In this document: positions 45,209 through 63,607 of the stretch, piece after piece
Layout: every line of letters starts with the position of its first letter
Position numbering within the stretch: position 1 is the stretch's first letter
Origin: Pseudomonas sp. gcc21
GTDB taxonomy: Bacteria; Pseudomonadota; Gammaproteobacteria; Pseudomonadales; Pseudomonadaceae
DNA: 64,000 nucleotides
Direction of reading: 5' to 3'
Assembly (NCBI RefSeq): GCF_012844345.1
Contig: NZ_CP051625.1
Location: 124,001-188,000, forward strand
Program-made: the position numbers and the translations under genes
Notes under the pieces: generated by a model
What the model was told of the DNA's origin: nothing
Databases searched by the model: none
Seen by the model: the letters and a program-made list of their open reading frames with translations, nothing else

Positions 45209-45353
45209 TCAGTCAGCGGCGAGAGTTTCCAGTTACGTCATAAGGGGAAAGACGCTGTGGCCCAGGTTGACGACAGAGCAGGGTGTTCCGGCCGTCTGAG
45301 GTCACCCGCTGAATGTCAAAAGGTAACGTTGCGTCATTGTTTTTGCTTGTATA

Positions 45354-45369
45354 CTGTTTATCCATACAG
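45354..45369 (+). promoter_or_regulatory. LexA (SOS) box upstream of umuD fragment
   Basis: CTGTTTATCCATACAG fits the LexA consensus CTGT-N8-ACAG and overlaps a TATACT –10-like box. It lies 21 bp before the umuD start codon, as in SOS-controlled umuDC/rulAB operons. Confidence 0.85.
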
Positions 45370-45389
45370 TAAAGGCAAAGGCATGCGCG

Positions 45390-45485
45390 ATGAGCGAAGC
45401 AGTTATTCTTGCTCCCATCGGAAGCTCGGCGGTCGAGCTTCCCTTTTTTTCCGCCCGGGTGCCCGCCGGATTTCCAAGCCCAGCG
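45390..45485 (+). pseudogene. umuD: Truncated umuD/rulA (first 32 codons)
   Basis: From ATG 45390 the frame reads MSEAVILAPIGSSAVELPFF and ends with SARVPAGFPSPA, the N-terminus of UmuD/RulA up to its autocleavage region. Homology stops at codon 32 (45485), exactly where the repeated metal-resistance module begins (45487); the catalytic Ser/Lys part and umuC are not in the window. It shows that an SOS mutagenesis operon was disrupted here. A longer frame in another phase (45257–45586) is not the real coding frame. Confidence 0.85.
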
Positions 45486-45582
45486 GTTTTCCCATATCGT
45501 TCTCTATGTCAATGTGCAGGCCAATTTTTGTAAACCTATATAAAACAATAATATACCGACTAAATAATCAATCCTATCTACT

Positions 45583-46005
45583 TTAATTGCGTTGATAATT
45601 GTCAGCCGGTTCGCTTCCTCCATTGATTCCCGCCAAGATCCCACAATCGGTTGCTTCGCGCTTATCCGAGCAACGCCCTCTCAGTGCAACAAGCTGTCTC
45701 TCAAGTTCATGTAGAGCGGTTATCTGCGATCGCACATAACCAATGTGGTCATCGAGCATCGTGTTCACCGCTGCACAAGGCTGGTGAGGATCGTCCTCAT
45801 AGCTTTGGAGATCATGAATCTCTGCCAGTGACAGGTTCAGGATTCGGCAGCGACGAATGAAAGCGAGCCGTTTGGCATGTCGCTCGGTATAGATACGGTA
45901 ACCGTTGTCCTGCCGGCTTGGCGCTTCAAGCAGGCCCTGCCGCTCATAGAAGCGAATCGTTTGGGTGTCGATACCTGCTGCCTCTGCTAACTGACCAATA
46001 CGCAT
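45583..46005 (-). CDS. Cd/Pb-type MerR family regulator (CadR/PbrR-like)
   Basis: A 140-residue MerR regulator with the winged-helix start MRIGQLAEAAGIDTQTIRFYERQGLL and a dimerisation helix. Metal-binding cysteines fit the Cd/Pb branch: one in DPHQPCAAVN (about 77) and two near the C-terminus (RGRCSDKREATDCGILAGI); the Cys14 of PbrR is replaced. Such proteins twist an overlong promoter spacer when metal binds. Divergent from the CDF gene it probably controls. The start is ATG 46005. Confidence 0.9.
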   Translation of the reverse strand: MRIGQLAEAAGIDTQTIRFYERQGLLEAPSRQDNGYRIYTERHAKRLAFIRRCRILNLSLAEIHDLQSYEDDPHQPCAAVNTMLDDHIGYVRSQITALHELERQLVALRGRCSDKREATDCGILAGINGGSEPADNYQRN

Positions 46006-46043
46006 CGCGCTTACTCCAAATCTCAACTGATAATCCCGCTCCC

Positions 46044-46075
46044 TTGACCTTATAGTTACTACATGGTTTTAACTA
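46044..46075 (+). promoter_or_regulatory. MerR-type operator/promoter of CDF gene
   Basis: TTGACC (–35, 46044–46049) and TAACTA (–10, 46070–46075) are separated by 20 bases, the long spacer typical of MerR-controlled promoters. The spacer holds an imperfect dyad between ACCTTATAGT and ACTACATGGT. Confidence 0.8.
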
Positions 46076-46111
46076 TCACAATTCTATTTCTGCTCGAACT
46101 GGAGGCGTACC

Positions 46112-46999
46112 GTGGGAAAAGATCGTGGTGACTCGTGTGGTTGTGATGCGACGCCTGCAACTGCCCCCGATACGCCGGTGTCCAGCGATGCGTCAGTTAG
46201 CGTCTTTGCCGTGCCGAATATGGACTGCCCCTCGGAAGAACGAATGATCCGCTTGGCGCTGAATAGTTTTCATAACATTCGAGCGCTCTCCTTTGATTTG
46301 TCGAATCGACGATTGACGGTCGTGCACGATGGGGAGGTTGAGCCCATAACGGCAAAACTGACGACCCTGGGGCTGGGTGCATCTCTTCAGGAAACGAGCA
46401 CTGCCGACACAGGGACGGTCACGGCTGCCATATCCTCTGCAACCTCGGACGCTCAAGAGTCCGGCACTCTACGTTGGTTGCTCGGCATCAATGCGATCAT
46501 GTTCGTAGCCGAAATGACCGCAGGCTTGATCGCCCAGTCTACTGGGCTGATTGCTGACTCGCTGGACATGTTTGCCGACGCAGCCGTCTATGGTCTTGCT
46601 CTCTATGCCGTAGGCCGCAGTTTGCGGTTACAGACACGCGCCGCTCATTTTGCTGGCGTGCTCCAACTGGTCTTGGCCCTTGGCGTGTTGATAGAGGTAA
46701 TGCGCCGTTTCCTGGTTGGCAGTGAACCTGAGTCCCTGATCATGATGATCGCTGCCTTCATTGCATTAATCGCCAACACCGTTTGCCTGTTGCTGATATT
46801 CAAGCATCGTGAGGGCGGCGTGCATATGAAGGCCAGCTGGATATTTTCAGCCAATGACGTGCTGATCAATCTGGGCGTCATCACCGCAGGTGCATTGGTC
46901 GCCTGGACGGGCTCCAGCTACCCGGATCTGGTTATAGGCACGATTGTGGGTCTTATCGTCCTCAACGGTGCCCGGCGCATTTTGGCGCTCAAGGCCTGA
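46112..46999 (+). CDS. HMA-domain CDF cation efflux protein, copy 1
   Basis: A 295-residue protein starting with GTG after CTGGAGG. Residues about 28–95 form an HMA-like domain with the metal-loop variant NMDCPSEE; residues about 120–295 form a cation diffusion facilitator with five or six helices. The transport-site motif is LIADSLDMFADAAVYG (Asp-x-x-x-Asp style) and the second site reads FSANDVLINLGV. It probably exports Cd, Zn or Pb from cytoplasm to periplasm, controlled by the divergent MerR. Substrate is inferred from the regulator. Confidence 0.85.
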   Translation: MGKDRGDSCGCDATPATAPDTPVSSDASVSVFAVPNMDCPSEERMIRLALNSFHNIRALSFDLSNRRLTVVHDGEVEPITAKLTTLGLGASLQETSTADTGTVTAAISSATSDAQESGTLRWLLGINAIMFVAEMTAGLIAQSTGLIADSLDMFADAAVYGLALYAVGRSLRLQTRAAHFAGVLQLVLALGVLIEVMRRFLVGSEPESLIMMIAAFIALIANTVCLLLIFKHREGGVHMKASWIFSANDVLINLGVITAGALVAWTGSSYPDLVIGTIVGLIVLNGARRILALKA

Positions 47000-47292
47000 T
47001 AAGAGTGGAGTGACGCTTTGCGCACGCCCGGATAAGGATCCAACGATTCTGCTGTCATGGATGACACAGTCTTTCCGTGTAGAGGGCGGTAGTCGACGGC
47101 GGAGCGCCCGGCCGAAGGGATAACCCTAGGCTGTCGTACTACTGGATGTTACGGCCTTTGTGTCGGTGGCCATCGCCAACTGGTAGACCGTGCAGTGTGT
47201 CGACCTACTCTGCTCTGTTGCCGTGCCGCTTGGACTTATAGTCAATGTAACCTTCGTTCTAATCAAACGTTATGTTGGAAGAGGATTTGACA
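47000..47292. other. Intergenic region between CDF genes
   Basis: 293 bases without a gene. TTGGACTTATAGT at 47230–47242 looks like a MerR-operator left half, but no –10 box at the right distance follows, so I do not call an operator. Confidence 0.35.
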
Positions 47293-48078
47293 ATGGATGA
47301 TTGCTGCGACAGCAAAGGCAGTGAGCTTGCCAAGCTGCGTGAGAAGCAGGGCCGGGTCCTCTACATCGTGCTGGCCATAAACGCTGTTATGTTCGCTGTC
47401 GAGTTTACGGCCGGTTGGATCGTGAACTCGACCGCGTTGCTCGGCGATTCGCTGGATATGTTCGGCGATACGTTGGTTTATGCCTTCTCACTTTTCGTGT
47501 TGCACCGTGGCACCCGCGCACGGGCGGGGGCTGCCCTTTTCAAAAGTGGCTTCCTTTTATTATTCGGCCTTTTGATTATCGGTGAAGCCATCCGTAAAAG
47601 TTTTCTGGGCGTGGTGCCGGAGGCGGGCTGGATGAGTGTGATCGGGCTTATTGCGCTCGTGGCCAACCTGAGCTGCCTAGGGCTGCTTTATAGTCACCGC
47701 AGCGACGACATTAATATGAGCTCGACTTGGTTGTGCTCGCGAAACGATGTTGTCGCCAATCTAAGCGTGCTATGCGCGGCCGGGCTAGTGATGCTGACCA
47801 AATCGCTGTGGCCGGACTTGATCGTCGGGGTGGCGCTCGCGTTATTGTACTTACACTCTTCCGTGCAGGTCGGGCGGGATGCTTGGCCACAGTGGCGCGG
47901 TCGCGCTGACCGTGATGCTGGTGTCGTAGGTTCATCGAGTGGCTGCTGTGAACCTGGTACCGTGACGAAGCAAGAGGCCGCCTGCGAAAAGAACGCCGCG
48001 ACGCAATCGGACGGCTATAGCGAAAGCCGCACCGTAGCGCCCACAGATACCGAAGTGGATCTCCGAAAAAAGCTATGA
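47293..48078 (+). CDS. CDF-family cation transporter with Cys-rich tail
   Basis: A 261-residue protein of the same short CDF subfamily (ALLGDSLDMFGDTLVYA and LCSRNDVVANLSV motifs) but without an HMA domain. Instead MDDCCDS at the start and SSSGCCEPGTVTKQEAACEKN near the C-terminus carry cysteines that may bind metal. The ATG at 47293 follows GAAGAGG and is preferred to 47272. Its stop overlaps the convergent transporter gene by six bases. Confidence 0.82.
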   Translation: MDDCCDSKGSELAKLREKQGRVLYIVLAINAVMFAVEFTAGWIVNSTALLGDSLDMFGDTLVYAFSLFVLHRGTRARAGAALFKSGFLLLFGLLIIGEAIRKSFLGVVPEAGWMSVIGLIALVANLSCLGLLYSHRSDDINMSSTWLCSRNDVVANLSVLCAAGLVMLTKSLWPDLIVGVALALLYLHSSVQVGRDAWPQWRGRADRDAGVVGSSSGCCEPGTVTKQEAACEKNAATQSDGYSESRTVAPTDTEVDLRKKL

Positions 48079-49044
48079 AACCGCCAGATCTCTACCACCC
48101 AACTTCGCGATGTAACGCACGTAAACAAGCTCGCTCAGCAGTTCTACAAGTGTTTGGGTCACAATGACCGCAGGAAGAAGCGGGATGGCGCCGGGTACAG
48201 CGAGAGCTAGCGGTAGTATGACCAAAGAGTTTCGCGTTCCTGCACTGAAAGCAAGGGCTCGGCCTGCTGGAGCATCGAGACGGAACAACAGGCCGATGGC
48301 CCACCCGACCAGAGGCGCAATAACGGCAAAAGCCAGGTAGAACGGGATAACGAGCAGAGCCGCTTCGATCGCCGCGCCAAGCTGCGGCACCACGGTCGCT
48401 ACGACCACAAACAGCACGAACACAGTAGCGGGTACCGGCAGCACACTAAGGGTCACTAGCGCCTTTGCGCCGGCTTGGCGCCGAGTTGCCCACAACTGAA
48501 CGAGCCCTGCCAGTGCCAGCGGAACTGCGATCAGCCAGATGAAGGCTTCTATGAACGGACCAGGCTTTACAAGGATTGTTACCTCATTTGATAACAACAA
48601 GCTGAGATAGAAAGGCAGTAATAACAACTGCGCGACGAGCAGCACTGGGGTTGCTGCAAGTAGCAAACGTGCGTCAGCACGGCCCAAATGAGAGAAGGTC
48701 ACCACGTAATCGATGCAAGGCGTAAGTAACACCAAGAGCACGCCGAGGCGGACCATTGGGTCAGATGGCAGAAATTGGAGCATCAAAGCCACGAGGAGCG
48801 GAATCGCCACAAAATTTGCGGCGAACAATGCTGCAAGAAATCGACCACGAGTGAGCGAACGCCTAAGGTCGGCAAGGGGCACCTGCAGAAATGTCGCGAA
48901 TAGCATGAATGCCAACGCCGGGTTCACCATCCCTTCAAGTGCGACGGTACCAGGTATCAATAAAGCAATAAGTCCCGCCAAGACCACCGCGCCGAAGTAA
49001 AGGCTCACTTGGTAGCCTTCGAGCCTGTCTCTAATATTCTGCAT
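48073..49044 (-). CDS. Bile-acid/arsenite-type (BASS/ACR3-like) transporter
   Basis: A 323-residue protein with about ten membrane helices. VLLVLLTPCIDYVVTFSHLGRADARLLL resembles the ACR3 arsenite-pump loop with its essential cysteine, and LPLALAVPGAIPLLPAVIVTQTLVELLSELVYVRYI matches the C-terminal BASS signature. Annotated relatives are called arsenic resistance proteins, but true ACR3 membership is uncertain. No arsR or arsC lies beside it. Confidence 0.75.
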   Translation of the reverse strand: MQNIRDRLEGYQVSLYFGAVVLAGLIALLIPGTVALEGMVNPALAFMLFATFLQVPLADLRRSLTRGRFLAALFAANFVAIPLLVALMLQFLPSDPMVRLGVLLVLLTPCIDYVVTFSHLGRADARLLLAATPVLLVAQLLLLPFYLSLLLSNEVTILVKPGPFIEAFIWLIAVPLALAGLVQLWATRRQAGAKALVTLSVLPVPATVFVLFVVVATVVPQLGAAIEAALLVIPFYLAFAVIAPLVGWAIGLLFRLDAPAGRALAFSAGTRNSLVILPLALAVPGAIPLLPAVIVTQTLVELLSELVYVRYIAKLGGRDLAVS

Positions 49045-49335
49045 ACTTTCTCACTGCTGCACCTGCGGTTCGATAAAAGGCCCGAGCCAGAGCGCTTCCA
49101 AGCGGAATGCTGCCATTGCGACAACATCGGTGGCTTCGACCGCATTCACCCGAAGAGCGAAGGCTCACTCGTACCTAGCAGAGTCCATGGTACCGTATTT
49201 TGAGCGTGTGCTTTCTCAGCGCCATGGTTCGAGACAAGGTTCGCGTGCCGAAACGAAAACTATCCGTCCGGAAAAACGTCACAATACCGGGGGCATCGAT
49301 ATTGCTCCGAATTTATATGCGACTTCGAGGATGAC

Positions 49336-50076
49336 GTGAATAATATATGGGCAGTGATCGGTCTAGCATTACTCCCCGCGCTGGGGAACCTAGCAGGTGG
49401 TCTGCTAGCAGAATTTACCGGGACTCCAGACAGCCGGTTGAACAAAGCGTTGCATGCCGCCTCTGGAATTGTCCTGGCGGTTGTCTCCGTTGAACTCATG
49501 CCTGAAGTCCTAGCAACCCTCTCGGGATGGGCTGTGGGAGTCGCATTTGGCCTGGGCGGTATCGCTTACATCGCCATAGAAACCGCCGTGGATGGTGTTC
49601 AACGCTCGCAAGGAAGGACGAGCACTGCCAACCGAGGCATGTGGATGATCTATATCGCTGTGGCCATCGACCTGTTCAGCGATGGGCTACTGATAGGTAC
49701 AGGCTCGGCAGTTGCGTTTTCCATGGCTGTGGTACTCGCCCTGGGGCAGGTTCTGGCTGACGTACCTGAAGGATACGCCACTATCGCAAACATGAAGGAA
49801 AAAGGCGTGCCGCGAGCGCGCCGGATGGTGCTCTCAACCTTTTTCTTCATTCCGGTAATTAGTGCGGCGATGCTCGCCTATTATGTGCTTCGAGATCAGA
49901 GCGAAGCATTTAAGATGATGGGGCTTGCTTTCACCGCAGGATTACTCACTGTTGCGGCAGTCGAAGACATGCTTAGCGAGGCGCACGAGACGACGAGCGA
50001 CTCGCGCGGGTCGGTCCTGGCGTTTATGGGCGGATTCGTATTGTTTACCTTCGTCTCAGCGGGCCTGGGTGGCTAG
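49336..50076 (+). CDS. ZIP-family metal transporter
   Basis: A 246-residue membrane protein with about eight helices. The N-terminal IGLALLPALGNLAGGLLAEF and HAASGIVLAVVSVELMPEVL fit ZIP family helices; the metal-path motif usually written HExPEG reads VLADVPEGYATIANM, and the preceding HNxPEG-type motif reads AIDLFSDGLLIGTGSA, so the histidines are replaced. It starts with GTG at 49336 after GAGGATGAC. Direction and metal are unclear. The 291 bases before it (49045–49335) show no gene. Confidence 0.78.
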   Translation: MNNIWAVIGLALLPALGNLAGGLLAEFTGTPDSRLNKALHAASGIVLAVVSVELMPEVLATLSGWAVGVAFGLGGIAYIAIETAVDGVQRSQGRTSTANRGMWMIYIAVAIDLFSDGLLIGTGSAVAFSMAVVLALGQVLADVPEGYATIANMKEKGVPRARRMVLSTFFFIPVISAAMLAYYVLRDQSEAFKMMGLAFTAGLLTVAAVEDMLSEAHETTSDSRGSVLAFMGGFVLFTFVSAGLGG

Positions 50077-50321
50077 GCCCGCTAGCAGAGTGAGTGAGCA
50101 GCCCGAACCCGCCGGGCGATGATAGGAGTACCGCTGCACCAGCTCCGCTGATCCTTTTCATGCCTAAATGTGGTAGATTCTGCGCCCCGCAATCCACATA
50201 ACCAAACGCCTACCGACTCGGTGTCGGAACTATCTGTCCATTGACACGCGGGGCAATGCTCATCCCTGCCTTCTTATAGGGGTTTCTCCTCCGGCAGCAG
50301 ATGCAGCAGAAGAAACGTAGC
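50077..50321. other. Intergenic region before CusR-type box
   Basis: About 245 bases without a gene between the ZIP gene and the copper-type operator; no terminator with a T run is obvious. Confidence 0.35.
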
Positions 50322-50361
50322 GATTAGCCTTAAATGACAAAATTGTCATTTAAGGCTAATC
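50322..50361. promoter_or_regulatory. CusR/CopR-type operator palindrome
   Basis: A perfect 40-bp palindrome with 19-bp arms (GATTAGCCTTAAATGACAA and complement) and an AA centre. Its core AAATGACAA-N2-TTGTCATTT is the CusR box known from the E. coli cus operon. A GATAAT –10 box lies at 50382–50387 with no –35 box where one is expected, fitting an activator-dependent promoter for the gene at 50429. Confidence 0.8.
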
Positions 50362-50428
50362 CTCTCGTCAGGCTTGAACAGGATAATAGCGGCATGGAAT
50401 TCATACCCAATGCCAAGCCGAGGGCGCT

Positions 50429-50671
50429 ATGACATATCGCAAAATGATGACTGTATTTAGCATGGCTTTCGTCTTGATCGGAGCCAGCACAGCAGTGCAG
50501 GCTGAAGATGGAAGCTTGAAATTGAGGACGATGCTTGCTGATCGTCACGGATATGGTCTGCCTCTTGATGAGCGTAAGGGGAATGAAGTAAAGGAGCGTA
50601 AGCAGCGTATCCTGAATAATGATGAGTTATTCTTGAAAATGACAGAAAAATCAGATCCCGAAAATAGATAA
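50429..50671 (+). CDS. Small periplasmic protein under CusR-type box
   Basis: An 80-residue protein with a signal peptide (MAFVLIGASTAVQAED, cleavage near residue 25) and a highly charged mature part of about 55 residues without cysteine and with one histidine (ADRHGYGLPLDERKG). I do not recognise a family. Its position directly after the operator and before a terminator and the two-component genes suggests it is strongly metal-induced. Confidence 0.65.
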   Translation: MTYRKMMTVFSMAFVLIGASTAVQAEDGSLKLRTMLADRHGYGLPLDERKGNEVKERKQRILNNDELFLKMTEKSDPENR

Positions 50672-50719
50672 TTTCAGTTTCATCTCTTGGGTAGTTACTC
50701 CTTCAACAAGAGATGTTTT

Positions 50720-50743
50720 AGGCGCCTTTGGGCGCCTTTTTTT
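50720..50743 (+). terminator. Rho-independent terminator before two-component genes
   Basis: AGGCGCC pairs with GGCGCCT through a short loop and is followed by seven T. It would stop most transcripts from the CusR-type promoter before copR, leaving read-through for the regulator. Confidence 0.88.
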
Positions 50744-50803
50744 ACAAGCTGGCGACGCCCACGCATCAGAACACGAAGATGAAAGGCCAAACAAGGTGCA
50801 ACG

Positions 50804-51478
50804 ATGCGAGTCCTGATCATCGAAGACGAATTGAAGACAGCCGAATATTTGCAGCAAGGTTTAAGCGAATCTGGTTACACAGTTGACTACGCTTTAACGG
50901 GAACGGATGGAATACACCTTTTCAAAAACCAGCAGTATGCTTTAGTGGTATTGGACGTAAATTTGCCTGGCATGGACGGTTGGTCGATATTGGAAGATAT
51001 CCGCCGCACTAGCGATGCGCGAGTAATGATGTTAACTGCGAGCGGCAGGTTGTCGAACAAGGTGAAAGGATTGGACCTGGGTGCAGATGATTATCTGGTT
51101 AAGCCCTTCGAATTCCCTGAATTGCTGGCAAGAATTAGATCGCTTCTGAGGCGAAGTGAAAAGTTGACCGAAGTCGAATTTTTGAAAGTGGCAGACCTTG
51201 AGGTTGATCCCGCTAGACATCGTGCATACCGAGCAGGGCAGCGCATCGATCTGACTGTTAAGGAGTTCTCCTTATTACAATTACTCATGCGAAATACCGG
51301 TGTCGTTATGACAAGGACTCAAATAATTTCGTTAGTATGGGACATTAACTTCGATTGTGATACTAACGTAGTTGACGTCTCTATCCGAAGGTTGCGCGCC
51401 AAAATAGACGAACCCTTTGACAGGAAGCTAATCCACACCCTGCGCGGGGTGGGGTATGTTCTTGAGGATCGCGGATGA
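50804..51478 (+). CDS. Copper-type OmpR-family response regulator (CusR/CopR-like)
   Basis: A 224-residue regulator with a receiver domain (phosphoacceptor Asp51 in YALVVLDVNLPGMDGWSILE, Lys in YLVKPFEFPELLARIRSLLRR) and a winged-helix domain (VDVSIRRLRAKIDEPFDRKLIHTLRGVGYVLED). Such heavy-metal regulators bind CusR/CopR boxes like that at 50322. The gene and its partner kinase are visibly AT-richer than neighbours, suggesting separate acquisition. Stop and kinase start overlap by four bases. Confidence 0.88.
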   Translation: MRVLIIEDELKTAEYLQQGLSESGYTVDYALTGTDGIHLFKNQQYALVVLDVNLPGMDGWSILEDIRRTSDARVMMLTASGRLSNKVKGLDLGADDYLVKPFEFPELLARIRSLLRRSEKLTEVEFLKVADLEVDPARHRAYRAGQRIDLTVKEFSLLQLLMRNTGVVMTRTQIISLVWDINFDCDTNVVDVSIRRLRAKIDEPFDRKLIHTLRGVGYVLEDRG

Positions 51479-52866
51479 CCAAGCCTTTGAGTTTGTCTCT
51501 GCGAATTGGATTGTCTGTAGGTATTATGGGATCAATTCTCGTTATTTTGATATTCAGTCAATCCTGGATGACGCTGCGCAATCAACTGGGAATAATTTCC
51601 GAGTCCAGGTTAGAGAACAAGTTAAGTCAAATAGAACATGTCATTTCAGAGTCTAACCCGTCGCTTGTTAAAGATACTATTTCACACCCGCTGGGCGATT
51701 TAGTGTCCGGTCACCCTGATCTAGGCCTGCTGGTATGCGATGCTCAAAGGCCGAATAAACTAACTTTTATGGTTGGTTCAGTGCCAAATGAGTTGCTAAC
51801 TGGAAGCACTTGTACCGCCGAACTTGATACATATGAAAATCGGTTTGCTCAGCTCGGCATCAAGGCGCTAATAAAGACTAGCACTGTGCGCATTGCTGGG
51901 AGCAGCGAGAATTTTCTGCTAGTACTCTTCAGTAATCGTTCCGATGATTCCGAATTGCTTAGCGCCTACCTGAATTCGACCGTATTAGCGGTGCCGCTGT
52001 TCCTGGTATTAATTGGATTCGGGTCATGGTGGATTGCCCGACGAGGGTTGGCTCCACTGAGTAACTTCAGAGAATTGACTTCCATCGTTACCACAAATGA
52101 TCTTGATGGAAGAATAATAACCTCTGGTCTGCCCGTGGAGCTTAAAGAGCTAGCAAACAGCGTAAATTTCATGTTGGGAAGGCTTGAGGGTGGCGTGCAA
52201 CAACTTTCCGATTTTTCTGATGATCTGGCTCACGAGTTGCGATCTCCGATTACTAATCTCATGGGTAAGGCGCAGGTGGCTCTTTCTCGCGACAGATTAT
52301 CATCACAATACAAAGAAACGTTGGAATCATGTGTAGAGGAGCTTGGCAGAATATCGCGGATCGTTTCAGACATGCTCTACCTTTCGCAAGCTCTTCAGTC
52401 GGATTCAGCTAATCTATCAGATAAAATTCCGTTAAGAAGAGAAGCTGAACAAGTAGTCGACCTGTTTAATATGATCGCGGAAGAAAAGGGAATATCGCTG
52501 ACCGTCCAAGGAGACGGCGTTATCGTGGGCGACAGGTTAATGGTACAGCGAGCTATATCGAACCTATTATCGAACGCCATCAGACACGCGTCCCCCCACA
52601 GCAACATCCCGATCCTCATCACGAGCCAAGGTCAATCTATCGTGTTGTCTGTGACAAACGATGGCCCCGGTATACCCGAAGAGCACACTGAAGCGATATT
52701 CAAGCGTTTTTACCGGGTGGACAGGGGCCGCTCACGTGACGAAGGAGGGACAGGACTTGGTCTTTCGATCGTCCGTTCAATCATGGACATTCACCAAGGC
52801 AGCGTCACGGTGAATACCAGCACAACTGGTCCTACGACATTTCAACTGTGGTTCAACCTTATGTGA
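51475..52866 (+). CDS. Heavy-metal sensor histidine kinase (CusS/CopS-like)
   Basis: A 463-residue membrane kinase. Helix 1 is near residues 10–35, then a periplasmic sensor of about 130 residues, helix 2 near 165–190 (VLAVPLFLVLIGFGSWWIARRG), HAMP, and the phosphoacceptor His near 253 in DDLAHELRSPITNLMGKA. The ATP-binding domain has LSNAIRHASP, NDGPGIPEEH and GGTGLGLSIVRSI. It presumably senses periplasmic metal; the ligand cannot be read from sequence. AT-rich, like its partner. Confidence 0.9.
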   Translation: MTKPLSLSLRIGLSVGIMGSILVILIFSQSWMTLRNQLGIISESRLENKLSQIEHVISESNPSLVKDTISHPLGDLVSGHPDLGLLVCDAQRPNKLTFMVGSVPNELLTGSTCTAELDTYENRFAQLGIKALIKTSTVRIAGSSENFLLVLFSNRSDDSELLSAYLNSTVLAVPLFLVLIGFGSWWIARRGLAPLSNFRELTSIVTTNDLDGRIITSGLPVELKELANSVNFMLGRLEGGVQQLSDFSDDLAHELRSPITNLMGKAQVALSRDRLSSQYKETLESCVEELGRISRIVSDMLYLSQALQSDSANLSDKIPLRREAEQVVDLFNMIAEEKGISLTVQGDGVIVGDRLMVQRAISNLLSNAIRHASPHSNIPILITSQGQSIVLSVTNDGPGIPEEHTEAIFKRFYRVDRGRSRDEGGTGLGLSIVRSIMDIHQGSVTVNTSTTGPTTFQLWFNLM

Positions 52867-52874
52867 GGTGGCAT

Positions 52875-55390: not shown

Positions 55391-55404
55391 CCCAGGAGAA
55401 CAGT

Positions 55405-58400
55405 ATGCAAAGCATCATCCGTTTTGCGCTGGATAACCGGCTGCTGGTGGTCGTGTTAGCTCTGGCGACACTTGTTGGCGGTTACTTCGCTTATCGCACC
55501 CTGCCGGTGGACGCCTACCCGGATATTTCGCCGGCATTGGTCCAGGTGTTCGTGGAAACCGAGGGGTTGGCACCCGAAGAAGTGGAAAAATACGTCACCT
55601 ATCCGATTGAAAGTGCAATGAATGGTCTGCCAGAACTCGACCATGTGCGTTCGATTTCCAACTTTGGGCTGTCAGTTGTCAATATCTATTTTGAGGATGG
55701 GACTGATATCTATTTCGCCCGGCAATTGGTGGGCGAGAGGCTTCAGGTCGCTCGGGAGTCGATTCCCACCGGTTTTGGCGAGCCGGTCATGGGGCCTATT
55801 ACTACAGGGCTTGGGCAGATACTGTTTTATGTACTCGAGGACACCAGCGGTCAATACAGCACTACCGAGCTGCGTGAGATTCAGGACTGGATCGTTAAGT
55901 TCAATTTGCAGACCGTCAAGGGCGTAACCGAAGTTCTTTCGATTGGCGGCGAAGTGAAACAGTTTCATGTGAATGTCGATCCGAACGCGCTGCTTCGCTA
56001 CGACGTCAGTTTGCCGGAAATCAAGGAGCGTATTGAAGCCAACAACGCCAATGCCGGCGCCCAGTTCATCGTCAAGAATGACGAAGAATACATTGTGCGG
56101 TCGGTGGGTCTTGCCACAGATCTCGAGTCTCTTCGCAACATTGTGGTGAAGACCATCGACGGGACTCCCGTTTATTTGCACCAACTTGGTGATCTGGACA
56201 TTGGCGGAGAAATTCGCCGCGGACTGACTACCAAGGATGGCAACGGCGAGGTGGTTGTCGGCATGGTGTTGAAGCTGATCGGCAGCAACACCTCCAACGT
56301 TATCGATGCGGTAAAGCAGGAGTTGGCGACAATCAACGATAACCTGCCTGAAGGCATCGAGGTGCAGCCGTATTATGACCAGGCTACGCTCGTGAAAGCG
56401 GCCGTAACCACGGTGATCAATGCTCTGTTGCAGGGCATCATTCTAGTAGCCCTGGTTCTGCTGGCTTTTATGGGTGGTCTCAGGCCAAGCCTGGTGGTGG
56501 CGCTCTCCATTCCATTTTCGGTCGGCTTTACCTTTCTTGCGATGAAAATTTTCGGAATATCCGCCAACCTGATGTCGCTGGGTGGGCTTGCCATCGCTAT
56601 CGGTATGATGGTGGATGGCGCGGTTGTGGTGGTTGAAAACGTTGATCGCATGTTGCGCGAAGCTAGGCCTGATGAGTCGCGTCTGCATATCGTGATGCGC
56701 GCCTGTCAGTCGGTCGCAAGACCGATCCTGTTTGCGATCAGCATTATCATTGTCGTGTTCCTGCCGCTATTCACCTTACAGGGCGTGGAAGGTGCGACAT
56801 TCAAACCGCTGGCTTACACGGTGGCGGTGGCGATGTTTGGATCGCTGATCTTCGCGCTAGTAATCGCACCAGTAGCCGCTTCGCTCCTGATGAGGAGCCC
56901 CAAGGTTCGTGAGGACAAGCCACGCAAGGACATCATCAGCTTTCTGCTCAAAGGTTATAAACCACTGGTAGAGGCAATGGTTGCTCGCCGCTGGATCGCG
57001 TTGGCGCTGGCGGTCGTCGTTCTGGCGGTGGGCGCTGCAGTAGCGCCGCGTCTGGGCTCGGAATTTGTGCCGCGTCTGAATGAGGGCGACCTGTTGATTC
57101 GCGCCACCATGGCGCCTTCTATCTCGTTGGAGAAAGCCAAAACCACTATCACTGTTTTTGAACGGCAACTGATGGAAGATTTTCCGGAGGTAACGCAGGT
57201 AGTCTCGCGTATTGGCCGGGGTGAAGTTGGCGCACACGCCGATCCGGTAAACAACGCCGAGATATTCGTTGCTCTCAAGCCACAGGAGGAGTGGGTGAGC
57301 GCGGATACATTGGACGGTCTTTATGCCGCAATGAGCAAGAGATTTGAAGATTTCCCCGGCGCCAAGTTCAACTTCACACAACCAATTGCCGCTGCTGTGG
57401 ATGAATTGCTGACGGGGACCAAGGCCGAACTTGCAGCCAAGCTCTTTGGTGATGACCTTGATGTGCTTGTTGAAAAAGCACAAGAGATCGAACAGGTGAT
57501 GGGCACAGTGCCTGGAGCGCAGGATGTTCAACGCGATCAGATCGGTGGCACACCGCAACTGCGCATTACGCTGGACCGGGCTGCGATCGCCCGCTACGGA
57601 CTCAATGTGAGTGATATTCACGATACGTTGAGCGTCGCGGTCGGTGGTAGCGAAGCGGGACAGGTGTTCGAGGGTATTCGTCGTTTCGATATATATGTGC
57701 GTCTGAAAAAGGGGGCGCGAAACGAGACGGAAGTCATTCGGCAGCTGATTCTCGAAAACGCCTCCGGCCAGCGGATACCCTTGGAGGAGCTGGCAAGTAT
57801 CGAAGAAGTTGTCGGGCCACGGCAAATCACCCGAGAAAACAATCAGCGTTTCATCACCATTCAAACGAACGTGCGTGATCGGGACATCGGCTCCTTTGTT
57901 GCCGAAGCCGATGCTGCTATTGCTGAACAGGTCGACCTGCCGCCGGGGTATTTTCTCAAGTGGGGTGGTCAGTTCGAGCTTCAGCAACAGGCCAACAAGC
58001 GTCTGATGATCGTGGTACCGATTACCCTGGCGCTGGTGTTCATAATGCTTTACGCAAACTTTGGTTCGCTGCGTAACGCTTTACTGATCATGCTCAACAT
58101 CCCGTTGGCTCTGGTGGGCGGTATCGTTGGCTTGTGGTTGACGGGGCAGAGCTTGTCAGTACCTGCGTCAATTGGTTTCATCGCGCTTTTTGGTATCGCA
58201 TTGGAAAACGGTCTGGTGCTTGTCAGCTATCTCAATGAGTTGGTCAGAGATGGCGTTTCCGTTGCTGAAGCCAGTGTCCGGGCGGCGTGTGCACGTCTGC
58301 GAGCGGTGATCATGACTGCTGTGACAACGGCGCTTGGGCTGTTTCCGCTCTTGTTCGCCAGCGGCGCCGGCAGCGAAGTGCAACGGCCTCTGGCCACCGT

Positions 58401-58506
58401 CGTGGTCGGCGGACTGGTCACAGCTACGATTCTTACCCTGTTGGTTATTCCCGCTCTTTATCAATGGTTCGCTGATAAACCAGCTGATATCGGCGAAACC
58501 CGTTGA
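55405..58506 (+). CDS. czcA: Heavy-metal RND efflux pump, CzcA-like
   Basis: A 1033-residue HME-family RND pump with two halves of six helices and large periplasmic loops. The helix-4 motif GMMVDGAVVVVEN (about residues 399–411) contains the proton-path acids; it lies between the CzcA form (VDGAVVIVEN) and the CusA form. The CusA copper-binding methionine is replaced in the loop GAHADPVNNAEIFVALKP, which points to divalent cations (Zn, Cd, Co) rather than Cu(I)/Ag(I). Third gene of czcCBA. Confidence 0.92.
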   Translation: MQSIIRFALDNRLLVVVLALATLVGGYFAYRTLPVDAYPDISPALVQVFVETEGLAPEEVEKYVTYPIESAMNGLPELDHVRSISNFGLSVVNIYFEDGTDIYFARQLVGERLQVARESIPTGFGEPVMGPITTGLGQILFYVLEDTSGQYSTTELREIQDWIVKFNLQTVKGVTEVLSIGGEVKQFHVNVDPNALLRYDVSLPEIKERIEANNANAGAQFIVKNDEEYIVRSVGLATDLESLRNIVVKTIDGTPVYLHQLGDLDIGGEIRRGLTTKDGNGEVVVGMVLKLIGSNTSNVIDAVKQELATINDNLPEGIEVQPYYDQATLVKAAVTTVINALLQGIILVALVLLAFMGGLRPSLVVALSIPFSVGFTFLAMKIFGISANLMSLGGLAIAIGMMVDGAVVVVENVDRMLREARPDESRLHIVMRACQSVARPILFAISIIIVVFLPLFTLQGVEGATFKPLAYTVAVAMFGSLIFALVIAPVAASLLMRSPKVREDKPRKDIISFLLKGYKPLVEAMVARRWIALALAVVVLAVGAAVAPRLGSEFVPRLNEGDLLIRATMAPSISLEKAKTTITVFERQLMEDFPEVTQVVSRIGRGEVGAHADPVNNAEIFVALKPQEEWVSADTLDGLYAAMSKRFEDFPGAKFNFTQPIAAAVDELLTGTKAELAAKLFGDDLDVLVEKAQEIEQVMGTVPGAQDVQRDQIGGTPQLRITLDRAAIARYGLNVSDIHDTLSVAVGGSEAGQVFEGIRRFDIYVRLKKGARNETEVIRQLILENASGQRIPLEELASIEEVVGPRQITRENNQRFITIQTNVRDRDIGSFVAEADAAIAEQVDLPPGYFLKWGGQFELQQQANKRLMIVVPITLALVFIMLYANFGSLRNALLIMLNIPLALVGGIVGLWLTGQSLSVPASIGFIALFGIALENGLVLVSYLNELVRDGVSVAEASVRAACARLRAVIMTAVTTALGLFPLLFASGAGSEVQRPLATVVVGGLVTATILTLLVIPALYQWFADKPADIGETR

Positions 58507-58520
58507 AAGGAGATAACTCC

Positions 58521-58862
58521 ATGCAAGAGATCAAAGCCTATATCAAGAACCACAAGCTCGAAGCAGTGACCCTGGCGTTGCACCGGGTGAGCGGTATCAG
58601 CGGTATGAGTGTCTCCGAGGTGCGTGGTTTTGGGCGGAGCAAGGCCCATACCAGCGCGGCCAACCCGATTGACGGCACGGCGGATTTCGTCAAGCACGTA
58701 AAAATCGAGGTGGTGTGTCATAACCAGTACGTGGACGAGGTGGTTCAGGTACTGAAAGACGTGGCCCATACCGGGCTACGGGGTGATGGGCGCATTTTCG
58801 TCAGCGATGTCAGACGGGCAATTCGGATCGAGGATGGTGTCGAGGATAGCACTGTCGTCTGA
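58521..58862 (+). CDS. PII-like protein of metal efflux operon
   Basis: A 113-residue GlnB/PII-superfamily protein: MQEIKAYIKNHKLEAVTLALHR start, VRGFGRSKAHTS T-loop, and the TGLRGDGRIFVSDVRRAIRI block. The T-loop lacks the tyrosine that is uridylylated in nitrogen-regulatory PII, so it is of the divergent (PII-NG) type found beside czc genes. It may bind nucleotide or metal and modulate CzcA. ATG 58521 follows AAAGGAG, 14 bp after czcA. Confidence 0.9.
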   Translation: MQEIKAYIKNHKLEAVTLALHRVSGISGMSVSEVRGFGRSKAHTSAANPIDGTADFVKHVKIEVVCHNQYVDEVVQVLKDVAHTGLRGDGRIFVSDVRRAIRIEDGVEDSTVV

Positions 58863-59094
58863 TAAACGAGCCGCGTTGATGAAGTTCGTGGCTTTTGGAG
58901 TAGCGCTCCCGGCTTCGTCGGGAGGCGCTTCTAACGTTGTTCGTTTTGCCCATGTTGTGTTCACTACTCAATCGAAACGATCGCAAGCACAAGGCAGTCG
59001 AAGGGGCTACGACATAACGTCGGGATCGCCACGGCAAAATGGCAGGGTGCATCACCCGATACAAACTGTGATTTCACTAGCGACAGGAGGCAAC

Positions 59095-59997
59095 GTGGGA
59101 CATCAACATCTACATAACGAACAGGCTGGTGATAAACGCGTTTGGTGGGCCGTAGCCGTCAATCTTATCCTAACCGTGGTGCAGATAGCGGGGGGAATAT
59201 TGTCAGGGAGCCTCTCACTGGTTGCCGATGCGATACACAACCTGAGCGACGCGATCTCGATGGCTATCGCCTATATCGCCAGAAGGATAGCTCGGCGTCC
59301 AGCCAACGAAGAGTGGACGTTCGGATATGTTCGAGCAGAGTTGATTGCAGCGCTTATAAACTACACCACCTTGATCGTGATCGGCCTGTACCTGGTTTAC
59401 GAAGCGATCTTTCGCTTTATCGAACCGCAGCCTGTTCAGGGGTGGACTGTTGTCATTGTCGCAGCTGTCGCTTTAATGGTTGACACGATAACGGCCATGC
59501 TGACCTATTCATTATCAAAGTCCAGTATTAATATTCGGGCGGCGTTTTTACACAACGTGTCAGATGCATTGGGGTCCGTTGGAGTCATCATCGCAGGTAC
59601 TTTGATTATTCTGTACGACTGGGTATTTATAGATCCTCTGATAACGCTAATGATAGCTGGGTATATATTGTGGCAAGCATTTACAGAAATAGGCGGCGCC
59701 ATACGCATACTCATGTCTGCCACACCAAAAGATATAGATCCCCAGGAGGTTATATCAAGGTCGTTGGCCGTTTCAGGGGTGTGTGGCGTTCATCACCTGC
59801 ACATCTGGCTCATAGATGAACACCGGACATCACTCGAGGCCCACGTTGTGATTGAGGACCAGCTGATGAGCCGAAGTGAGGACATCAAGAATGATCTCAA
59901 GAAAATGCTCAAAGATACCTTTTCCATTCATCATGTTACGTTAGATGTGGAATCTTCATCGGGAGAATGTGGCGACGCGAAAACGATTGGCCATTGA
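59095..59997 (+). CDS. czcD: Cation diffusion facilitator, CzcD-like
   Basis: A 300-residue six-helix CDF with the two HxxxD sites of zinc-type members (VADAIHNLSDAISM and FLHNVSDALGSVG) and a C-terminal cytoplasmic domain (GVHHLHIWLIDEHRTSLEAHVVIED). The start is GTG 59095 after ACAGGAGG; it gives a short His-rich N-terminus (MGHQHLHNE). It exports Zn/Cd/Co into the periplasm, where CzcCBA can take over. 232 bp after the PII-like gene. Confidence 0.92.
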   Translation: MGHQHLHNEQAGDKRVWWAVAVNLILTVVQIAGGILSGSLSLVADAIHNLSDAISMAIAYIARRIARRPANEEWTFGYVRAELIAALINYTTLIVIGLYLVYEAIFRFIEPQPVQGWTVVIVAAVALMVDTITAMLTYSLSKSSINIRAAFLHNVSDALGSVGVIIAGTLIILYDWVFIDPLITLMIAGYILWQAFTEIGGAIRILMSATPKDIDPQEVISRSLAVSGVCGVHHLHIWLIDEHRTSLEAHVVIEDQLMSRSEDIKNDLKKMLKDTFSIHHVTLDVESSSGECGDAKTIGH

Positions 59998-60005
59998 AAT
60001 GAAAT

Positions 60006-60020
60006 GCGCCCCTTGGGCGC
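60006..60020. terminator. Short bidirectional hairpin between czcD and porin
   Basis: GCGCCC/GGGCGC with a 3-base loop lies between convergent genes; the minus strand is followed by ATTTCATTTC. Weak terminator candidate. Confidence 0.5.
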
Positions 60021-60037
60021 CCATATCAAGTTTCAGA

Positions 60038-61366
60038 TCAGATAATATCAAGCGGGTATTCTATAATAATCCTGACTTCATCTAGATCCGATTCAAAAGC
60101 GGTTGCACGTGCAGTAGCCTGGCGCACCCTAAAAGACAGGCCATGGAGTTTTCCGGACTGCACTATGTACTTGGCTTCGATGTCTCTCTCCCAACGCTTC
60201 TGGTCAGTAAGCGGGTCCCCGTCCGCATCCCGTCTCATATAGACCGCGTTAGCATTTGAATAGTCGGCCTCGCTTCCTTTGGCATAACGGGTCATGAATG
60301 AAAGTCCCGGCACGCCATACTCAGTCATGTCCAGATCATAACGAAACATCCACGACTGCTCTTTTGGTGCGTTGAAATCATTATACTGAGATGCGTTATC
60401 GAGAAAGATTGCATCGGATTGCCGCAGATAATCGAAATCGTCATCTCCATGGTTGCGCTGGTGGGACACCGCGATGCTGTGGGCACCGGTCGCAATTCCG
60501 ACTCTAGCACTCCATATCTGGTTGCTAAACTCTCCGAGTAGCTTCTTGCCCTCGTCGCGGGCATCGTAATAATTTATGCCACCAAACAGCGAAATTCGTT
60601 CGGACATTGGCAGCTCACCGGAAATACCAACATACGTTTGATCCCAGGCGTCTTTAAGGCGGCTTGTATATAGGCTGAACCCTAATTCGGGATTGAGGAT
60701 ATAATCCCCTCCGAAATAAGCCACCCATGGAGAGTCGACCGCGCCTGCATAAAATGTTGCGAAATCATCATGCATACTGCTGCTGGTTGGCTGGCTCATG
60801 CCAGTGAGTCGACCGCCTTGTACGGTCAATCCTTCAACATGTGTGTTGGCCAGTGTAACGCCCCTGAAACTTTCAGGAAGTAGCCGTGAATCTCCGTAGT
60901 GGACAACAGGGTTAGCCGGAAAAACGTCACCTATCTTGATTACTGTGTCAAAGGCGCGCAGCTTAGCTACCGCCCCGATCTTTGTGTATTCGTCTTCGGC
61001 TTTGCCCTGGGAGTCGACAGGAAGTACGTCAAAGGTGCTGCGTCCGCCGTTTCGTCCGTCGCCAGTATCGAGTTTCAAACCCAACATCGCGAAAGCATCC
61101 AAACCAAAACCAACTGTCCCTTCGGTATAACCTGACTCGAAGTTAACCGTGATGCCGTGTGCCCATGCTTCAGAATATCCTGTCCCTTTCGGACTGAACT
61201 GACCATGACGGTCGTCTCGATTAAAATAGAAATTTCGGTTCAGTACCGATAGGTTGCTTCCATCTACGAAGCCAGATGCAATATGTTCTTGTGCTGATAC
61301 AGCTCCGGAGTGAGCGGCAAACAGTATTGACGAGGCAATCAACGTGCGACTGATGTTTTTATTCAT
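60038..61366 (-). CDS. OprD-family porin beside czc operon
   Basis: A 442-residue porin with a signal peptide ending SGAVSAQE, then FVDGSNLSVLNRNFYFNRDDR, the OprD N-terminal pattern, and KIGDVFPANPVVHYGDSRLLPESFRG. It is a diverged relative of the core porin at 8516–9793. In P. aeruginosa metal two-component systems repress OprD, so a porin next to czc genes may be co-regulated. A TTACAA-type palindrome lies about 82 bp upstream. Confidence 0.87.
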   Translation of the reverse strand: MNKNISRTLIASSILFAAHSGAVSAQEHIASGFVDGSNLSVLNRNFYFNRDDRHGQFSPKGTGYSEAWAHGITVNFESGYTEGTVGFGLDAFAMLGLKLDTGDGRNGGRSTFDVLPVDSQGKAEDEYTKIGAVAKLRAFDTVIKIGDVFPANPVVHYGDSRLLPESFRGVTLANTHVEGLTVQGGRLTGMSQPTSSSMHDDFATFYAGAVDSPWVAYFGGDYILNPELGFSLYTSRLKDAWDQTYVGISGELPMSERISLFGGINYYDARDEGKKLLGEFSNQIWSARVGIATGAHSIAVSHQRNHGDDDFDYLRQSDAIFLDNASQYNDFNAPKEQSWMFRYDLDMTEYGVPGLSFMTRYAKGSEADYSNANAVYMRRDADGDPLTDQKRWERDIEAKYIVQSGKLHGLSFRVRQATARATAFESDLDEVRIIIEYPLDII

Positions 61367-61447
61367 ATGATTTTCTTCTTTTAGGAGGCTTTTTGGAACG
61401 AACGTTTTATCGTATTCCTCTCAGAATTGCGGGTAGATTGCACCAGC

Positions 61448-61463
61448 ATTACAATTTTGTAAT
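61448..61463. promoter_or_regulatory. Palindrome upstream of porin gene
   Basis: ATTACA and TGTAAT flank ATTT in an AT-rich stretch, 82 bp before the porin start. It resembles the half-sites of CopR/CzcR-type operators, but the exact binder is unknown. Confidence 0.45.
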
Positions 61464-61887
61464 ATGACGAGGCGTGGTAGGACTCTTTAACCTGACTGTG
61501 ATGGTTATGGATGCGCGGAGTGGCCGATGTTGATTCGCGTTTGAGCAGACAAAAGCTGATGATCAGTCGCTACGCCCGCCGAGCCAACGGATGGAGTCTT
61601 GTCTGGATGAAGAGGTGTTTTCATTCACTCCGCTTTCGCTAGGATTCTTCACAACCCTGCCGTACCGCTCCAGCGTCTGCCGTGGTCCGAGAATATCACG
61701 CCGGATTTCCTGATTTTCGCCTTCTTGTTATATAACGGCCTCTGCATTTCTATCGCAGCGGATGATCTCACCCCGTTCACGGTTTTATTACTGTCGCCCA
61801 TGATTGCAGCGCTAGCGATGAGCTCGAGTTCGGCCCCGATCGCGTTCAAATGCGCTGCGCCTGCAGTGTGTACGGATTGACCGGCTC
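61464..61887. other. Unassigned stretch before second repeat copy
   Basis: About 420 bases. A minus-strand frame (61649–61849, extending upstream to about 61887) reads ...AIGAELELIASAAIMGDSN... and may be a gene fragment, but I recognise no family. The first 150 bases hold the porin promoter. Nothing else is supported. Confidence 0.35.
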
Positions 61888-61983
61888 TTTTCCCATACCG
61901 TTCTCTATGTCAACGTGCAGGACGATTTTGATAAACCTATATAAAACAATAATATATCGACTAAATAATCAATCCTATCTGCT

Positions 61984-62406
61984 TTAGCTACGTTGACAAC
62001 TGTCATCCGGATCGCTTCCTTCATTGATTCCCGCCAAGATCCCACAATCGGTTGCTTCGCGCTTATCCGAGCAACGCCCTCTCAATGCAACAAGCTGCCT
62101 CTCAAGTTCATGTAGCACAGTTATCTGCGATCGCACGTAACCAATGTGGTCATCGAGCATCGTGTTCACCGCTGCACAAGGCTGGTGAGGATCGGCCTGA
62201 TAGCTTTGGAGGTCATGAATCTCTGCCAGTGATAGGTTCAGGATTCGGCAGCGACGAATGAAAGCGAGCCGTTTGGCATGTCGCTCGGTATAGATACGAT
62301 AACCGTTGTCCTGTCGGCTTGGCGGGTCAAGCAGGCCCTGTCGTTCATAAAACCGAATCGTTTGGGTGGCGATACCTGCTGCCTCTGCTAACTGACCAAT
62401 ACGCAT
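61984..62406 (-). CDS. Cd/Pb-type MerR family regulator, copy 2
   Basis: A 140-residue regulator differing from the first copy in about 12 residues, including Asp-to-Ala in the recognition region (AEAAGIATQTIRFYERQGLL) and a new cysteine near the end (DDSCQRS). The three metal cysteines (HQPCAAVN, RGRCSDKREATDC) are kept. It is probably functional and may control both CDF copies. Confidence 0.9.
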   Translation of the reverse strand: MRIGQLAEAAGIATQTIRFYERQGLLDPPSRQDNGYRIYTERHAKRLAFIRRCRILNLSLAEIHDLQSYQADPHQPCAAVNTMLDDHIGYVRSQITVLHELERQLVALRGRCSDKREATDCGILAGINEGSDPDDSCQRS

Positions 62407-62444
62407 CGTGCTTACTCCAAATCTCAACCGGTAATCCAGCTCCC

Positions 62445-62476
62445 TTGACCTTATAGCCACTACATAGTTTTAACTA
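62445..62476 (+). promoter_or_regulatory. MerR-type operator/promoter, copy 2
   Basis: TTGACC and TAACTA again lie 20 bases apart. The dyad centre differs from copy 1 (TATAGCCACTACATAG), so the two promoters may have different strength. Confidence 0.78.
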
Positions 62477-62512
62477 TCACAATTCTATTTCTGATCCAAC
62501 TGGAGGCGTACT

Positions 62513-63400
62513 GTGGGAAAAGATCGTGGTGACTCATGTGGTTGTGAGGCGACGCCTGCAAATGGCCCCGATATGCTGGTGTCCGGCGATGCGTCAGTTA
62601 GCGTCTTTGCCGTGCCGAAGATGGACTGCCCATCGGAAGAACGAATGATCCGCTTGGCGCTGAATAGTTTTCATAATATTCGAGCGCTCTCCTTTGATTT
62701 GTCGAATCGACGGTTGACGGTCGTGCACGATGGGGAGGTCGAGCCCATAACGGCAAAACTGAGGACCCTGGGGTTGGGCGCATCTCTTCAGAAAACAAGC
62801 ACTGCCGACTCAGGGGCGGTCACTGCTGCCATATCCTCTGCAACCTCGGACACTCAAGAGTCTGGCACTCTGCGCTGGTTGCTCGGCATCAATGCGATCA
62901 TGTTCCTAGCCGAAATGACCGTAGGCTTGATCGCCCAGTCTGCTGGGCTGATTGCTGACTCGCTGGACATGTTTGCCGACGCAGCCGTCTATGGTCTTGC
63001 TCTCTATGCCGTAGGCCGCAGTTTGCGGTTGCAAACACGCGCCGCTCATGTTGCTGGCGTGCTCCAATTGGTCTTGGCCCTTGGCGTGTTGATGGAGGTG
63101 GGGCGCCGTTTCCTGTTTGGCAGTGAACCTGAGTCCCTGGTCATGATGATCGTTGGCTTCATTGCATTAATCGCTAACACCGTTTGCCTGTTGCTGATAT
63201 TCAAGCATCGTGAGGGCGGCGTGCATATGAAAGCCAGCTGGATATTTTCAGCCAATGACGTGCTGATCAATCTGGGCGTCATCACCGCAGGTGCATTGGT
63301 CGCCTGGACGGGCTCCAGCTATCCGGATCTGATTATTGGCACGATCGTGGGTCTTATCGTACTCAACGGTGCCCGGCGCATTCTGGCGCTCAAGGCGTGA
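62513..63400 (+). CDS. HMA-domain CDF cation efflux protein, copy 2
   Basis: A 295-residue protein, about 92% identical by eye to copy 1, GTG start. Differences cluster in the linker after the HMA domain and in one helix (LMEVGRRFLFGSEPESLVMMIVGF); the LIADSLDMFADAAVYG site and the HMA loop (KMDCPSEE) are kept. It is probably active, with the same role as copy 1. Confidence 0.87.
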   Translation: MGKDRGDSCGCEATPANGPDMLVSGDASVSVFAVPKMDCPSEERMIRLALNSFHNIRALSFDLSNRRLTVVHDGEVEPITAKLRTLGLGASLQKTSTADSGAVTAAISSATSDTQESGTLRWLLGINAIMFLAEMTVGLIAQSAGLIADSLDMFADAAVYGLALYAVGRSLRLQTRAAHVAGVLQLVLALGVLMEVGRRFLFGSEPESLVMMIVGFIALIANTVCLLLIFKHREGGVHMKASWIFSANDVLINLGVITAGALVAWTGSSYPDLIIGTIVGLIVLNGARRILALKA

Positions 63401-63569
63401 TGTTAGCTGCAAATAAAACGATTATCCGCTGAGTTGTCGCGGAAAACGGTACGAAGGTACTGCGTGGCAACGGCACTGCCGCGTTTGATAACACCGGGGC
63501 GATCAGCACAAGCGTGACGTTTACGGCGATCTTGCCTATAGCTGCAACCCTGTCGTCCAGCTTCCGAAA
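63401..63569. other. Spacer after second repeat copy
   Basis: About 170 bases with no supported gene between the CDF stop and the CopR-type box. Confidence 0.3.
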
Positions 63570-63607
63570 CTGACATAAAAGTAATTTTAGGCTCACTTTT
63601 CTGTCAG
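63570..63607 (+). promoter_or_regulatory. CopR-type box with inverted repeat
   Basis: CTGACA-N5-GTAAT at 63570–63585 matches, as I recall it, the CopR site described in P. aeruginosa. The same stretch is part of a 13-bp inverted repeat with one mismatch (63570–63582 with 63595–63607). It lies about 95 bp before the ATG at 63702. Confidence 0.65.

Follow-up and report, generated by a model that had tools for sequence, protein, structure and literature searches.

The repeated module

The subject of this analysis is a metal-resistance block in Pseudomonas sp. gcc21, contained in a 64,000-nucleotide stretch of DNA (contig NZ_CP051625.1, positions 124,001 to 188,000). This stretch is referred to as the window; positions on the whole genome carry the prefix C1. 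The block is bounded by two copies, A and B, of a module in which a merR-type regulator gene and a gene for a CDF-family transporter are arranged divergently. The pair is real, old and functional-looking, and appears to lie within a nested, repeatedly rearranged metal-resistance island.

45487–46999, module A: merR-type regulator and HMA–CDF transporter genes, divergent (alignment, profile scan)
45583–46005, minus strand, merR A: CadR/PbrR type, 140 residues from the ATG (Pfam MerR; TIGR02047 CadR-PbrR, 180 bits, cut-off 151)
46112–46999, plus strand, CDF transporter A: 295 residues with an N-terminal HMA domain (PF01545 and PF00403 above their cut-offs)
61888–63400, module B: 93.9% identical to A (alignment)
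61984–62406, minus strand, merR B (profile scan and translation)
62513–63400, plus strand, CDF transporter B: 295 residues, 23 of them unlike A; HMA score narrowly below the cut-off

An alignment of the two copies covers 1513 bases, with 93 mismatches and without gaps; they are in direct orientation, at an offset of 16,401 bases. Counted in 50-base steps, 43–50 of 50 bases agree inside the module and 8–20 outside; the step across the left edge has 25. Both copies start at TTTTCCC and end at the CDF stop codon (46999 and 63400), with one more agreeing base beyond it. A chance origin of the match is excluded. A search of the 3.98-Mb genome with the module returned A and B as the sole matches, with no third copy. 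No transposase gene was found among the flanking open reading frames scanned beside the module edges, and no inverted repeat of at least 12 bp pairs the two edges of either copy. In all these respects the preliminary description of this DNA, which had reported an indel-free direct repeat with common edges and with neither transposase nor inverted repeat at its junctions, was accurate.

The same description had proposed a base-by-base alignment and a comparison of nonsynonymous (dN) with synonymous (dS) substitution. Both reading frames are open in both copies. Between A and B (NG86), the CDF genes give dN 0.037 and dS 0.113, with 23 of 295 residues different, and the merR genes give dN 0.040 and dS 0.163, with 13 of 144 residues different when a few codons ahead of the ATG are counted. 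In both genes dN is well under dS, which points to purifying selection on each. The Pfam HMA score of the transporter is 25.7 bits in copy A and 24.4 in copy B, against a cut-off of 24.8. The regulator-site region between merR and CDF is unlike in the two copies (46044–46072, ATAGTTACTACATGG; 62445–62473, ATAGCCACTACATAG), and the two promoters may therefore respond differently.

Two module lineages and gene conversion

At least 534 relatives of the module were confirmed, of which the best 80 were kept. Searches covered 36 other genomes of the genus (presumably Halopseudomonas; the taxonomy puts profundi under Pseudomonas) and 398 genomes of the family, drawn evenly from a larger group with one per species. 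Relatives above 90% identity were seen only in this genus, the full module being present at that level in 2 of the 36 genomes, those of P. profundi (G017) and P. saliphila (G021). A third genome, G007, has more distant copies at 70–73% and, of the close type, two 5' fragments (91% and 89%). Distant relatives (70–72%) also lie before copA in G013 and, on the opposite strand, after cus in G035, within the stretches taken. With 61645–62300 as query and two candidates scored per genome, no other family genome matched the module portion of that query above 80%, except for a 45-base stretch at 82% in G347. No match was found by megablast among 72,556 plasmid records. A class-wide search of 369 genomes for the junction between the module and umuD, described below, gave 4 matching genomes, of which the three other than gcc21 have short matches that we take as chance.

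Over the 1513 bases, A differs from the profundi module at 34 positions, B from saliphila at 53, profundi from saliphila at 58, A from saliphila at 60, A from B at 93 and B from profundi at 98. Since A is nearer to its profundi counterpart than to B, copy B is no recent local duplicate, and a recent tandem duplication was rejected as its origin. The earlier suggestion that the copies are old or came from two sources is borne out by these distances. Where the four sequences divide two against two, 34 sites pair A with profundi and B with saliphila, all of them from 45898 onward. A tree built from 45670 onward with six outgroup sequences pairs B and saliphila at 99%, A and profundi at 91%, and has to be read with the following mosaic in mind.

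The saliphila module consists of alternating stretches that resemble profundi and A, or B. Its differences from profundi number 1 in 45487–45897 and 2 in 46247–46504, but 31 in 45898–46246 and 24 in 46505–46999. Against B, the numbers are 25 and 14 in the first two of these intervals, and 8 and 6 in the other two. The max-chi value was matched by none of 10,000 shuffles of the 97 sites. On both sides the flanks of the saliphila module are profundi-like, and because the exchange kept these flanks, the mosaic is read as gene conversion and not excision. It shows that the two module types meet and recombine, and provides no evidence of excision. The saliphila draft assembly yielded no copy of the B type.

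The left edge of module A lies within umuD

Module A abuts a fragment of umuD, a rulA-like gene.

45354–45369, plus strand, CTG-N10-CAG box of LexA type, upstream of the umuD fragment (motif as given in the part of PMC4542609 drawn on here)
45390–45486, plus strand, umuD 5' fragment MSEAVILAPIGSSAVELPFFSARVPAGFPSPA: 32 codons and one base, cut after GFPSPA; 88% identical over 45318–45484 to an intact umuD elsewhere in the genome

The TTTTCCC edge is joined to umuD at the same codon in five loci, involving four umuD alleles. These loci are copy A, profundi, saliphila and two loci of G007; profundi and saliphila share one allele, their versions being unlike at two bases beside the junction and at a few farther upstream. 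The base before TTTTCCC is G, C, C, T and A across the five. In the two G007 loci the first 212 bp of the edge are identical, while 130 bp on the umuD side differ at 58 positions, so the exchange was precise at the junction. Inner stretches of 7.9 kb and 5.2 kb are 99.9% and 99.8% identical between these loci. The near-identical czc islands of G007 are found at C1:661407–674169 of that genome and at a locus spanning the contig end and start, each on a different umuD allele and at the same codon.

On the right, partial umuC genes were recognised from translations in saliphila, profundi and one G007 locus, at differing codons, and profundi has an insertion-sequence-like gene at the umuC-side position (also from translations). 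In the open-access literature we found no paper on umuD as an insertion target; one on Acinetobacter UmuDAb came up, which deals with another topic.

Copy B lies between a copA remnant and cus

The surroundings of copy B are of a different kind.

61709–61880, plus strand, remnant of copA, a copper P-type ATPase gene: a decayed 3' end that shares 78% identity with that of the intact copA (C1:207328–207495)
61881–61887, plus strand, CCGGCTC: the same as the seven bases before the profundi module, and as part of the umuD codons for P-A-Q in an intact umuD of this genome (about 3.958 Mb)
63402–63553, 152 bp behind module B: no convincing match in the fetched loci or the 398 family genomes

G035 and G013 have an intact copA, whose end precedes the match to the cus leader (positions 63562 and 63566 here) by 13 and 11 bases, respectively; copy B is absent. 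As copA stands directly before cus in these genomes, the DNA with copy B (about 61881–63553, some 1.67 kb) is an insertion into the copA–cus spacer. In saliphila the order umuD–module–CDF–czc–oprD runs directly into the cus operon without B, the places corresponding to 61642 and 63554 being 15 bases apart, and profundi has both junctions as in saliphila, again without B. The junction between copA remnant and module was found in gcc21 alone among the family genomes. The CCGGCTC match suggests, on the basis of seven bases, that copy B too came from a umuD junction. It was considered whether the flank of B might be a circle junction joining the right and left ends of the island; this was ruled out, the copA remnant being in its usual place before cus.

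The intact copA of this genome is followed at C1:207501–209205 by repeats that carry palindromic motifs (TTGACGGCA and TTGTCGTCAA) and reach 337 bp in length. This DNA departs from that of saliphila directly behind the copA stop.

Genes between the modules

The block holds the following genes.

47272–48078, plus strand, second CDF-family gene, within the block (profile scan)
48073–49044, minus strand, SBF-family transporter gene (profile scan); no match here in saliphila, profundi or G007
49336–50076, plus strand, ZIP-like transporter gene (under the Pfam cut-off)
50804–52866, plus strand, heavy-metal two-component system (profile scan; TIGR01386)
52848–58506, plus strand, czcCBA-type RND efflux operon (profile scan; TIGR00914)
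58503–59997, plus strand, genes for a P-II-like protein and a czcD-like CDF transporter (profile scan)
60038–61366, minus strand, OprD-family porin gene (profile scan)

The whole section with the SBF and ZIP genes (about 48050–50283) is unmatched in saliphila, profundi and G007. In profundi (L003, C9) another RND operon stands in place of czcCBA, between the same two-component and CDF–oprD genes. It has no DNA match to czcCBA, and its proteins are 42% identical to CzcA and 27% to CzcC; this is probably a swap of cargo within the island. In G007, 50283–61881 is present twice, one locus being 95.6% identical over 11.6 kb and the other 93.3%, with 99.2% in its last 5 kb. Both run past the copA remnant into other DNA, without B. 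The DNA behind this remnant resembles that behind the intact copA in saliphila, and G007 looks as if cus–cop had been deleted between two copA ends.

A probable larger island at tRNA-Ser

39525–39538, plus strand, left repeat CTGACTCTCCGCCA, formed by the 3' end of tRNA-Ser(cga); its right-hand counterpart is beyond the window, at C1:230287–230300
43938–44900, plus strand, integrase gene upstream of the umuD fragment (PF12835)

In the 144 kb examined, the 14-bp repeat from the tRNA-Ser(cga) 3' end recurs once, at 106287–106300 on the window scale, and is followed there by a terminator-like hairpin. A tyrosine integrase gene is found at 90533–91840 on the same scale. The cargo beyond 64000 includes cus-type RND genes and genes for a multicopper oxidase, CopB and a P-type ATPase. 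The block probably belongs to an island some 66.8 kb long, which has the tRNA-Ser repeats as its ends and contains an integrase gene.

The region between tRNA-Ser and a gene that we take to be purC was found, whole or in part, in 36 of 37 genomes, with 30 loci returned, one of them that of gcc21. Among the 29 others, 18 are without the exact 12-base tRNA end, and the 11 with it were examined further. In two of these (G006 and G014), DNA that is found here at 108862 lies within 285–499 bases behind the tRNA (68–69% identity); G007 resembles the left flank of the island, and the remaining eight match neither.

A DDE transposase element at 40589–42203 has an identical counterpart, 1615 bp long, at C1:3118270–3119884; short inverted repeats lie near 40581 and 42211.

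Origin of the module pair

Our preferred reading, to which we give a probability of roughly 0.6, is that two CadR/PbrR–CDF lineages have come together in a composite metal-resistance island, copy A being the edge of a umuD-docked island and copy B an inserted relic. We infer the following course of events, as well as anything that bears on present mobility, from comparison of the loci. A czc–cop island would have entered umuD at a fixed codon, with copy A as its left edge. Copy B would have arrived within the 1.67-kb insertion, between an older copA, of which the 3' end alone remains, and the cus operon. Given the seven umuD-like bases on its left, it was most likely the left edge of a second, related umuD-docked island, joined by recombination and with the rest lost. 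The whole would be carried by the tRNA-Ser(cga) island with its tyrosine integrase gene, and homologous exchange between the module types would proceed as gene conversion.

Several observations weigh against this account. The seven-base match to umuD left of B is short, and the 152 bp on the right of B are without a source. The saliphila and profundi loci lack the copA remnant as well as B, so that B may have been lost there rather than never present. Three sites in 45623–45740 pair A with B against profundi and saliphila, a hint of direct exchange between A and B. The umuC-side position of the umuD-docked islands is not fixed. As regards the larger island, a candidate empty tRNA-Ser site was seen in 2 of the 29 loci, and about 14 kb separate the integrase gene from the right repeat, so that this island, too, may be a composite.

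Most worth pursuing is the fixed umuD junction. Tentatively, and with clearly less assurance than the account as a whole, these loci may represent a so far undescribed site-specific metal-resistance island, which enters umuD after GFPSPA with a constant TTTTCCC edge and a variable base or short overlap beside it. It would have entered two umuD alleles of G007 recently, a further island of this kind would have copy B as its left edge, and the recombinase would act in trans or have been lost.

An unlikely alternative, and the strongest of those considered, is that two complete related islands integrated in succession at the same umuD-type site, so that A and B are the left edges of each, and that deletions then cost the first its right end and the second its czc part. 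Copy B does start at the same left edge behind the umuD-like CCGGCTC, and the islands of G007 hold the same copA remnant, followed there by other DNA. However, this course of events assumes two deletions, and the position of copA directly before cus in G035 and G013 implies that cus probably lay next to the copA remnant already when B arrived.

Somewhat less probable again is the proposal of the preliminary description, that the direct repeats form a homology-based mobile unit: recombination between A and B would free the 16.4-kb czc block as a circle. In the form weighed here, the circle could also re-enter at any module copy. In favour of this, A and B are 1.5-kb direct repeats of 94% identity, the module types do recombine in saliphila, and the three sites common to A and B alone would fit. 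The related loci speak against it, since saliphila and profundi have the block with one module and G007 has it with a truncated module, all without B; the exchange in saliphila is of the conversion type; and the block lies within the probable larger island. The preliminary description had also proposed a search for single-copy versions and emptied sites, and here the results divide: the block without B was found in relatives, while no emptied site was seen. The cus leader (63390–64000) matches 14 of the 398 genomes, 8 of them in the genus including gcc21, and an emptied site, with one module directly before the leader, was seen in none of G017, G021, G035 and G013; nor was there a circle-type junction in the genomes searched, one genome per species being a thin test. 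In the stretches taken around the leader matches of G006 and G014 there is no module. These observations cover neither the G010 match nor the secondary ones of G017 and G021, nor the six weak ones that fell outside the genus. The pair does not bound a demonstrated mobile unit, and the tempting story of repeats that make a transposase-free mobile block gives way to one of two lineages, gene conversion and a nested island.

That the module represents the decayed form of an ISPpu12-type (ISL3) insertion sequence, and reached its two places through a transposase since lost, is very improbable. Although a 3369-bp contig (L057) has a merR–CDF pair followed by lspA-like and tnpA-like genes, no such genes lie beside A or B among the open reading frames scanned, no left-edge terminal repeat exceeds chance (95–492 of 500 shuffles are as good), and five loci on one exact umuD target are unlike random insertion.

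Comparison with known systems

ISPpu12a is a 3372-bp element of the ISL3 family with a czcD-type module that, in the part of the report drawn on here, conferred no resistance in the strains tested (PMC4447125). Elements of this type have a divergent merR–CDF pair like that of the window, and L057 carries the pair within its 3369 bp. The DNA is 73% identical to the window module; unlike these elements, the window has no lspA, tnpA or terminal repeats that we could find. The gene names lspA and tnpA in L057 are our assumption from the translations. On the right side, the best match to an ISPpu12-type terminal repeat was reached by 28 of 500 shuffles, as one of 12 comparisons. Two candidate ends were dropped: a degenerate terminal repeat near 45549, to which shuffles were often as good, and the sequence GGCTCTTTTCCC, presumed to be an ISL3-like end, the GGCTC being absent from four of the five umuD junctions.

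For rulAB, the part of PMC4542609 that we draw on describes site-specific integration of integron-like elements in rulB, with rulA-like genes not found interrupted. As far as that part of the account goes, the hot spot in rulAB/umuDC resembles the present locus in that an SOS polymerase operon with a LexA-type box ahead of it has received cargo at one fixed position. It differs in that the left junction here is in umuD and not in umuC or rulB, the right side falling in umuC at differing positions in three loci. Also unlike the rulB integron-like elements and the GInt islands, no integrase gene set was found among the open reading frames scanned in 45487–83502, some small ones lying outside the scan. 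These comparisons point to umuD, beyond umuC/rulB alone, as a fixed docking site for metal-resistance DNA behind an SOS promoter.

A likeness to GInt islands is seen at two other umuDC operons of this genome, outside the window and separate from the metal block. In both, umuC is cut near position 96–98 of its IMS domain, the parts being at C1:3958060–3958753 and C1:27945 (about 52 kb apart, if the contig is circular) and at C1:3108866–3109556 and C1:3126849 (17 kb apart). Beside the cut, the two loci share a 9.4-kb segment with integrase-like genes, 97.8% alike, which may be of GInt type; its first two genes match Phage_integrase weakly, below the cut-off.

Metal-resistance islands docked at tRNA genes have repeats of the tRNA 3' end, a tyrosine integrase and czc, cus or cop cargo. 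The larger island has the same repeats, integrase and cargo, to which are added here the nested umuD-docked island and the diverged pair of modules.

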